Source: Hydra vulgaris (Eukaryota > Cnidaria > Hydrozoa > Anthoathecata > Hydridae). From it: a stretch of DNA of 64,000 nucleotides. The translations under genes and the position numbers were made by a program. Each line of letters opens with the position of its first letter. Within the stretch, counting starts at the first letter, position 1. This document shows, in pieces, positions 55,337-61,065 of this stretch. The notes beneath the pieces were generated by a model that made no database searches, was not told the DNA's origin, and saw only the letters and a list, made by a program, of their open reading frames with translations. Location: positions 39,389,001-39,453,000 of the forward strand of contig NC_088926.1 in the NCBI RefSeq assembly GCF_038396675.1. The letters are read 5' to 3'.

Positions 55337-58300
55337 TCAAAATACAAATATCTTTTTTTTTTTAAATACATAAGCAATATAAATACACAAAAAAGTTGTT
55401 TTAAATTTATAGTAAACCACCAAAATATACGAGAGGTGAATGTTAGCAATAGAGGTGGGTGTGGTGGCGATTGGTGTATCACACCCTAGGATCAAAAACG
55501 ACTTGATTTTATAAATATTTATATCTTTACTATAATGAGTAAAATTAGTACACAATATAAAATTATGTTATACAATCTTACGTATAAAAGTGGTGTTTCT
55601 ATTACGAAGAGGTGTATGCCCACCACCTGCCTACCCCCTCCCCACCTCTCCTCCTAACCTAAAAAAAAAATTATTATTTTCAAAACTTGAACAATAAATT
55701 TAAAAAATAAATTAAAAAATTGGAAATAAATTAAAAAATATATTCATACCAGACAACCACCAAATATGGGAGGTTAATGTAAAACTCACAGTAGATATGT
55801 TGATGATGTTTTAGTACTATAATATCAAAAAATGTTTCAATTCTTGAAATATCTGATTGAATATTTAAAGTACAACAACAAAGAAGTAAAAAACATATTC
55901 CACTAGATTAAAAGATACATTAGTGGTGCATCCATGGTCATAAGAGAGTGGAGTATAAATTAGGGCGTATCCAAATATGTCATAAGAAAGAGGCATTTTT
56001 ATTTAAATCTTAATGCAAAAATGATAAATATTGTCCTCCCAGTTTGAGTAGGCAGAGGTGGCACTAAAAACGAAAGCATAATACAAAAACAAAAATTGCA
56101 AATATTTTTTAATATAAACTCATGTGGCAAAGTTGATATATATAGCCTTACAAGTTGCAACAGATAAAGAAAAAAAAGCATAATAATAATAATAATAATA
56201 ATAATAAATACTTAAATCAATTTTCAAAGAATAAAAAATATATGTCATTACCAACTGGAACAGATGAAATTTGCACTAAAATAAAGAAATAGGCATAATA
56301 AACTAAAATCAAATTCTTGTAATAATTTTCCAATTACAAGTTCACTTTATACACCTTACCAATTTGTTCAGATGACGATGGCACTAAAAAATAAACATAA
56401 AATACAGCCACGTCTTAAAATTTGGTTGTTAAAAAGTAAAAATATGTAAACCTTACCAGTATTAACAGAAGAAGATAAAACTAAAAATTAAAAATACATT
56501 ACATTATCTTGCAATTATATATGTAAATTATTTGTCGATACTGAAAAATATTTGTTATTTAAGATCTATAAATTCTTATTGAAAATATATGACATTACCA
56601 ACTGGAACAGATGCAAGTGGCACTAAAATAAAAAATAAAATCTTGTAATTATTTTGTAATAATAATCATGTTGAAAGGTTTAGATTATACCTTACCAACT
56701 TGTTTCGATGATGATGGCACTAAAAAATAAAAATATAAAATACTATAGCATAGACTTATATGATAAAAAAATGTTATATGAAAAACTTTATATGAAAAAA
56801 TTAAATAATATAGCACAACCTTAAAATAATTTAGAAATTAAAATCATATATGAAAATAAAAATATAAAAACCTTACCCATTATAACCGATGAAGTTGATA
56901 CTAAAAAATAAAAAATGCAATACACAACATAACTGTATAATTATTTAATAATTGAAACCATACTTAAAATTATTTGTAATTAACAATATATATATTCATA
57001 CATACATATATATATATATATATATAATATATATATATATATATATATATATATATATATATATATATATATATATATATATATATATATATATATATAT
57101 ATATATATATATAAACCTTACCAACAGTAACGGATGAAGACGATACTAAAAAATAAATAGACAATACACAAAACAACCTTAAAATTATTTTATAATTAAA
57201 ACTATACTGAAAAATAATAATATATAAAACTTGCCAACAGTAATAAACGATGATGATACTAAAAAATAAAAAAACAATACACAACATAACCTCACAATTA
57301 TTTAGCAATTATATTCATATTGAAAAGTAAGAATATATAAACCTTAGCAGCAGGAATAGACGACAGTGACACTACATATGAATTAAATGGCATAATATAA
57401 GTCTCCTTCCATTAATATATATATATATATATATATATATATATATATATATATATATATATATATATATATATTTATATATATATATATATATATATAT
57501 ATATATATATATATATATATATATATATATATATATATATATATATATATATATATATATATATATATAGGGATGGCAAAAATCCCGGAAATTCTCAATC
57601 CCGGGATTTCGGGATTACAAATTTGTCCCCGGGAAATCCCGGGATTGAATGAAAAACTTGCAATCATAGAAGATAAAGCCTCCGAAGAACTTTTAATTAT
57701 CAAACACTATTATATGATTAATTTAACTGATGAAGTAAAGTAATTTAAACTATAAATAACACCTTTAAACGATAACACAAAATAACAATGTTTAAAAATA
57801 ATATAAGTATACATTAATCTATAAGAGTTATAATTCGTTTTGAAAGCTCCACCTTAAAAAACTCAAAGCGTCCATCATTTCATCGTTTAATCGTGTTCGA
57901 TTTTTAGAGCATAAAAACCCAGCGGCTGAGAATGCTCGTTTAGAGTCTACACTTGTTGGTCGTATAGATAGAATATAGTTATACACTTTTTGAAGGTGAT
58001 CACCTCTTGTGCCACCACTTTCAAATAAAAACATTTCTTTTTGAATCTTAGAAGTTATACTTTCTACCCTTATAGGTGTTGTGCGGGATGAAAACGCTTT
58101 ATCATGCTTACTATAATCTTTTTATTTTGATTACTTGTATTTGGTACAAAAACATCTGTGATTTTCGTTGATGCAACCTGGCCATTATGAAGACAATAAA
58201 CTAACCTACTTAATGGTGTTCTCCTCTCTTTAATTCGGTGACTCAAAGCAGCATACAGTTTATTCCCGATTTCAGATTTTTGTTGTTTTATTTTGGTCAA

Positions 58301-61065: not shown

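Follow-up and report, generated by a model that had tools for sequence, protein, structure and literature searches.

A Hydra vulgaris array of same-phase micro-exon-like segments, each coinciding with one peptide repeat

Can a gene be put together from exons of 21 and 24 nucleotides, each of which supplies a single peptide repeat? The question is raised by a locus on the minus strand of a 64,000-nucleotide stretch of the Hydra vulgaris genome (contig NC_088926.1), which is the whole of the DNA analysed here and is called the window. Our best explanation, which we hold to be moderately probable, is that the window carries one copy of a small multi-copy Hydra family, whose predicted phase-1 micro-exons would each hold one repeat and which would have grown by duplication of these units. 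The observations behind this reading are the anatomy of the array, its phase, a chance control, its duplications and the order of the octads in two database proteins.

Anatomy and phase of the array

The minus strand carries 16 short exon-like segments between 61099 and 56040, all in one common phase (phase 1). An earlier note on this DNA had described at least 16 tiny segments with acceptor and donor signals, mostly of 21 or 24 nt, all in phase 1 and with one repeat per segment, so that exon borders are repeat borders, and each of these points is borne out. Fifteen of the 16 segments have one of the two sizes (eleven of 24 nt and four of 21 nt), and the first measures 39 nt, or 73 nt when counted from ATG 61099. 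A TAG acceptor precedes 16/16 segments (15/16 if the first is counted from ATG 61099), and the donors are 13 GT, including the weak gtcatt at 60797, one GC (57235) and two non-canonical (CT at 57348 and GG at 56040). Stop codons are found in 0/16 segments in phase 1, and in 4/16 and 6/16 in the other two frames.

The segments are listed here with the transposon that lies among them and with the matching units of P0001 and P0002, the two database proteins described in the next section.

61027-61099 or 61027-61065, minus strand: first segment, to be read as a first exon of 73 nt that begins at ATG 61099 or as an internal exon of 39 nt; donor gttagt
61577-61667, minus strand: alternative first exon, MHLPNFVEKYYVAVTLFLAALLLPNSHFPC, signal-peptide-like, phase 1, donor gttagc
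60797-60820, minus strand: candidate micro-exon NELALQRI, 24 nt, weak donor gtcatt
60620-60640, minus strand: heptad NKLKQTI, 21 nt
60486-60506, minus strand: heptad NEYGQQI, 21 nt; unit duplicated with that at 60383
60363-60383, minus strand: heptad REYGKQI, 21 nt; duplicate of that at 60506
60194-60214, minus strand: heptad SNLTSII, 21 nt
57568-60110, minus strand: decayed hAT transposon within the intron that separates heptad from octad exons
57348-57371, minus strand: octad VSLSSIPA, 24 nt, broken donor ctaagg; in-frame ATG 57393 upstream (MPFNSYV)
57235-57258, minus strand: octad VSSSFITV, 24 nt, GC donor; P0002 has VSSSSITV
57122-57145, minus strand: octad VSSSSVTV, 24 nt; P0002 has VLSSSVTV
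56877-56900, minus strand: octad VSTSSVIM, 24 nt; P0002 has VSTSSFIM
56696-56719, minus strand: octad VPSSSKQV, 24 nt; present in P0002, P0001 has APSSSKQV
56599-56622, minus strand: octad VPLASVPV, 24 nt; present in P0001, P0002 has VPLASVPF
56457-56480, minus strand: octad VLSSSVNT, 24 nt; P0001 has DLSSSVNT, P0002 VLSFSVNT
56360-56383, minus strand: octad VPSSSEQI, 24 nt; P0001 has VPLSSERI, P0002 VPSSSERI
56252-56275, minus strand: octad VQISSVPV, 24 nt; identical in P0001 and P0002
56040-56063, minus strand: octad VPPLPTQT, 24 nt, broken donor ggagga; identical in P0001 (8/8)

Read from the sequence, the heptads place an Ile every seven residues, with Leu or Tyr four residues before it, in four exons; this is the a/d spacing of a coiled coil, and the stretch may be called coiled-coil-like. 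The earlier note had counted five such heptads. Four of them stand, and the first (60820-60797) is instead the 8-mer NELALQRI, without Leu or Tyr at that place. The introns measure 73-221 nt, apart from the gap between heptads and octads, which is 2822 nt long, or ~280 nt once the hAT element is subtracted.

We can ask how often such an arrangement would appear from base composition alone. Under strict splice-site rules for acceptor-donor pairs, the hAT-free part of the region contains nine 24-nt pairs. Eight of these are among the listed exons, and the remaining pair (55658-55635), G-rich and with a stop, is not. In 500 dinucleotide shuffles, 24-nt pairs occurred with a mean of 0.126 and a maximum of 2, and no single pair length of any kind gave more than 3 pairs in one shuffle. 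The array is thus no accident of base composition, but because the units are tandem duplicates of each other, the observed pairs are not independent and the shuffle control alone does not make the segments exons.

The locus had been drawn down to 55337, and here it has to be shortened, with no supported exon in 55337-56039. One open candidate of 27 nt (55816-55790), with a TAG acceptor and a gtgagt donor, we set aside because it is unlike any repeat and has no counterpart in either P0001 or P0002, and likewise candidates of 24, 30, 45 and 48 nt further down, all of which contain stops. A profile search with the units returned, among the best 32 matches of each profile, the listed octads together with a stop-containing remnant at 57206 and a poor site at 56175. 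Since even the listed exon at 56063 scored below three unlisted sites, further diverged units are possible.

Two database proteins with joined octads

We compared a 112-aa peptide, joined from 14 of the 16 segments, with ~5.8 billion proteins at a threshold of E 10, and one of 23 candidates passed. This protein of 133 aa, P0001, is 'uncharacterized protein LOC136092362 [Hydra vulgaris]'. It contains five consecutive octads of the window with 37/41 residues identical (BLASTP 90% over 41 residues), followed by VPPLPTQT, which equals the last exon of the window at 8/8 positions, then by VPSSSAST and another C-terminus, for which tblastn gave no convincing match in the window among the best 40 rows. 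As the sequences read, its initial Met corresponds to the M that ends VSTSSVIM, the exon before these octads. Used as a query in turn, P0001 retrieved itself only (1/33 candidates passed).

A longer composite query gave at least one match, the single one to pass among the 7989 candidates to which scoring extended. This protein of 625 aa, P0002, is listed as '52 kDa repressor of the inhibitor of the protein kinase-like [Hydra vulgaris]', and its residues 1-79 consist of MPFNSYL and then nine consecutive octads in the order of the window, with 67/77 residues identical by BLASTP (87%) and 66/72 within the octad residues by our own count. The remainder of P0002 carries a DUF4371 (hAT-type transposase) domain, which P0001 is without. 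The proteins have octads in common, five of the nine in P0002 being present in P0001, and their loci lie on different chromosomes or in different assemblies, given that the contigs recorded for them measure 57.7 and 69.5 Mb. Within their length and word limits and at E up to 10, the three protein searches returned only these two Hydra vulgaris proteins, in agreement with the cnidarian origin that had been supposed from the letters of the DNA. Within the same limits no heptad-bearing protein was found, and the heptads are absent from both P0001 and P0002.

The ends of the P0002 array can be compared with the window directly. The window codons before the VSLSSIPA exon read MPFNSYV, in frame from ATG 57393, and the MPFNSYL of P0002 is evidently intron-homologous DNA read as a start. 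At the other end, the window intron after VQISSVPV gives NDIYFL and SLKIDL in two of its frames, and P0002 has ANDIYFLSLKIDL there. Being flanked on both sides by intron-like sequence, the array in P0002 is not a processed cDNA copy, and the simplest reading would be that its annotation removed introns between the nine units. Both proteins are annotated models that differ in their C-termini, P0002 being fused to a transposase, and they may be chimeric; P0002 is probably either a chimeric model or a paralogue into which a transposable element has inserted. With regard to the units themselves, the two models support their joining in window order, and we consider it quite likely that the octads are spliced at the listed borders.

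Since the heptads occur in neither protein, we infer rather than observe that heptads and octads belong to one gene, and regard the matter as evenly balanced. The parts could instead be two genes, with a heptad gene that starts at 61099 or 61667 and runs to 60194 or beyond, an octad gene that starts at ATG 57393, and the hAT element between them. Such a division would account for a P0002 model that begins exactly at MPFNSY, for the absence of heptads from P0001 and P0002, and for the 2822 nt between the parts. However, the parts are adjacent and have strand, phase and micro-exon style in common, the gap without the hAT element comes near the length of the other introns, and MPFNSY stands just before an acceptor-like TAG, so that it could be merely the first start available. 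We find two genes somewhat unlikely.

Duplication, constraint and decay

The array has a 113-nt period at 57107-57363, a heptad unit duplicated over 114 nt (60423-60536 and 60300-60413) and a higher-order duplicate of ~174 nt (56582-56743 and 56235-56405) that pairs two 16-residue blocks of two octads each. Aligning six duplicate pairs gives no gap among 141 exon columns, compared with 132 gap columns beside 764 aligned columns in the flanks, a flank figure that is inflated by end gaps. The substitution identity of the exon is above that of both flanks in one of the six pairs, below both in two and between them in three. In the heptad pair 60506/60383 the whole codons differ by four synonymous changes and one nonsynonymous change, four of these five at third positions; an Asn/Arg difference in the split codon comes on top of these. 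For the octads, dN/dS over all 45 pairs is 1.05 in the claimed frame versus 0.66 and 0.89 in the other frames, which speaks against the coding claim, whereas six hand-picked likely duplicates give 0.58 versus 0.88 and 0.91. Length conservation and the one heptad pair suggest coding constraint, which appears weak for the octads.

The gene had been taken to be intact, and on this point the window copy argues otherwise. Two of its donors are broken, no terminal exon was recognised either by tblastn with P0001 or by the unit profile search of the window, and a hAT element stands between the heptads and the octads; for these reasons the copy looks decayed, and we take a paralogue in decay to be more probable than a gene that still works. 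Alternatively, symmetric exons with broken donors could simply be skipped. That this particular copy is functional seems improbable to us. The hAT element itself (57568-60110) has a hAT dimerisation domain and inverted ends, and is also in decay, with an in-frame stop between ORFs that meet at 58738/58739 and a frame break near 58100.

Elsewhere in the window we observed the following.

40823-42368, minus strand: decayed DUF4371/hAT-type transposase remnant, ~47% identical to P0002 over the best piece; the array lies ~14 kb upstream in the same orientation
22388-24709, plus strand: another ORF pair of DUF4371-like transposase type, whose C17orf113-type zinc finger falls slightly short of the cut-off
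34177-37596, minus strand: probable non-LTR retrotransposon, broken up into several ORFs, with an RVT_1 reverse transcriptase domain at 34177-35079
54230-54525 and 54800-55095: inverted pair of 296 nt with 90.5% identity, MITE-like
2420-13981, plus strand: run of same-strand ORFs, of which 6054-7379 resembles the rve integrase core (E 1.8e-6, below the curated cut-off)

The last of these presumably represents a Polinton/Maverick-type element; ORF 11369 has no Pfam match, and four tested ORFs of the run have no PHROGs match. Viral contigs scanned with a pattern gave 0 matches.

The abundance of transposable elements around the array brings in another explanation, namely that it is a dispersed or transposon-derived repeat with splice-like motifs, and that the database proteins are annotation chimeras. 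At least three copies are found with different downstream partners (DUF4371 in P0002, another C-terminus in P0001 and neither beside the array in the window), and the octad dN/dS over all pairs is near 1. A mere repeat would, on the other hand, have to keep 16/16 segments open in phase 1, hold the exons of six duplicate pairs free of gaps, show the synonymous bias of the single heptad pair and have its octads put together in one and the same order by two models. The joined window peptide also stays below every curated Pfam cut-off (CdiI_ImmP, FliD_N and BLOC1_2 are weak matches below it), and no DUF4371 domain adjoins the array, the nearest same-orientation match being the remnant ~14 kb away, with its 47% identity to P0002. 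We judge a dispersed repeat rather unlikely. It is very unlikely that the segments are splice-like signals in AT-rich tandem repeats and never exons. Tandem duplication would indeed copy signals for free and octad substitutions have little frame bias, but nine pairs stand against a maximum of 2 in the 500 shuffles and, as the main counterpoint, two annotated proteins are built of the same joined units.

The explanation that we prefer, a multi-copy family of repeat-bearing micro-exons, would work as follows. The coding sequence would be cut into symmetric phase-1 micro-exons with one peptide repeat each, first heptads with a hydrophobic 3-4 spacing and then octads rich in Val, Ser and Pro. The family would grow as entire exon-intron units are duplicated in tandem and, at a higher order, groups of exons as well, and because every unit is symmetric, gain, loss or skipping of units would alter the number of repeats and keep the frame. 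Duplicated units with introns that can still be aligned would then allow the growth and decay of a gene to be followed exon by exon. Annotation appears to handle genes of this class poorly: of the two models found, one has its start within the array, and the other continues into transposase sequence.

Predicted product and comparison with known micro-exon genes

The start had been placed at ATG 61048, and it is probably not there, given an in-frame ATG upstream at 61099 and an acceptor-like TAG at 61066. From ATG 61099 the reading frame is continuous with the first segment up to the donor gttagt and gives 24 residues; three codons before this ATG the frame is closed by a stop. The window contains 6203 GT sites. 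An ATG exon of 15-35 aa leads in frame to 486 of them, and in 62 cases this exon equals or exceeds the ATG 61099 exon in hydrophobicity (1.0% of the 6203 and 12.8% of the 486). The most hydrophobic upstream candidate is the listed exon from ATG 61667, whose splice partner would be the first segment in its 39-nt form. Candidates of its level are expected by chance ~0.27 times per 2.93 kb of strand, and candidates of the ATG 61099 level 1.6 times under the same looser rule. Either start would fit a signal peptide, neither going beyond a modest chance level, and both fit better than 61048. Trans-splicing occurs in Hydra, and as a third option ATG 61048 might serve as the start after all, if a spliced leader were joined at the TAG before 61065.

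The predicted product would be small, repetitive, mostly disordered and possibly secreted, with a signal peptide, a short coiled-coil-like stretch and Ser/Val-rich repeats. In an AlphaFold2 model of P0001 (single sequence, no alignment) the mean pLDDT is 55.6 and the octads are without regular structure; two helices, at 61-70 and 77-87, have a block pLDDT of 73-79, and we draw nothing from them about function. No PDB entry matched P0001 up to E 1.

The array had been likened in principle to the micro-exon genes (MEGs) of schistosomes, and the likeness holds for short symmetric exons of the same phase. In the cited part of PMC10526429, MEGs have many tiny exons, mostly divisible by three, and a signal peptide; their exons are mostly 15 bp and their introns 100 to almost 5000 bp. 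Tiny symmetric exons divisible by three are found in the Hydra array too, whereas an N-terminal signal peptide is only possible there. MEGs are set apart by mainly short (≤36 bp) symmetric exons, and in Hydra 15 of the 16 segments found are of 21 or 24 nt and in phase 1. The cited passages of PMC8293314 describe such exons as removable without loss of frame, and say of the class as a whole that it 'seems to be restricted to schistosomes'. The MEG proteins are exposed to the host, and an exon that equals a repeat goes unmentioned in the cited parts of these sources. The three protein searches, at E up to 10 and within their length and word limits, found no similarity to MEG proteins.

The design had also been thought undescribed. 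For Hydra, no description of a micro-exon gene family is among the matches listed from the open-access literature, but genes with many same-phase micro-exons are known outside schistosomes from aphids, phylloxerids and coccids, according to the cited portions of PMC9168663 and PMC7495047. The bicycle genes of these insects average ~17 exons, their internal exons almost all begin at codon position 2, as in the many small segments of the Hydra array, and many have a signal sequence (PMC9168663, same portions). Unlike the Hydra array they belong to plant-feeding insects, and the cited portions do not mention one repeat per exon. Their Cys-Tyr-Cys motif is absent from the joined window peptide (one Cys), from P0001 and from the P0002 array, and is not formed with either start candidate (61099 or 61667). 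In the pea aphid KQY/KHI genes, a signal-peptide region is followed by miniature exons, and the genes are multi-copy and mostly scattered in the genome; KQY1a has 33/37 exons of ≤15 bp and introns of 180-5168 bp (PMC7495047, cited portion). They resemble the proposed Hydra family in their multiple copies and miniature exons, and differ in that the main text of that paper is without the word 'repeat'. The sea anemone SA8 genes, with 3-5 'microexons' in the cited part of PMC10210398, have a different design.

In the portions of the literature cited here, same-phase micro-exon genes are otherwise known from organisms whose proteins are injected or exposed to a host, i.e., schistosomes and the aphids and their kin. 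If the reading proposed here is true, a family with one repeat per micro-exon in a free-living cnidarian would mean that the architecture can arise without a host arms race. That Hydra independently evolved an MEG-like multi-copy secreted family, where each exon serves as one repeat (a single heptad or octad) and the number and composition of repeats can change without loss of frame, is a tentative proposal, possible though short of probable. The architecture that the array appears to share with MEG, bicycle and KQY genes is a resemblance that does not by itself show kinship, and what distinguishes the array is that the exon coincides with the peptide repeat. It is real and unusual, and belongs to the micro-exon-gene kind rather than to a category of its own.
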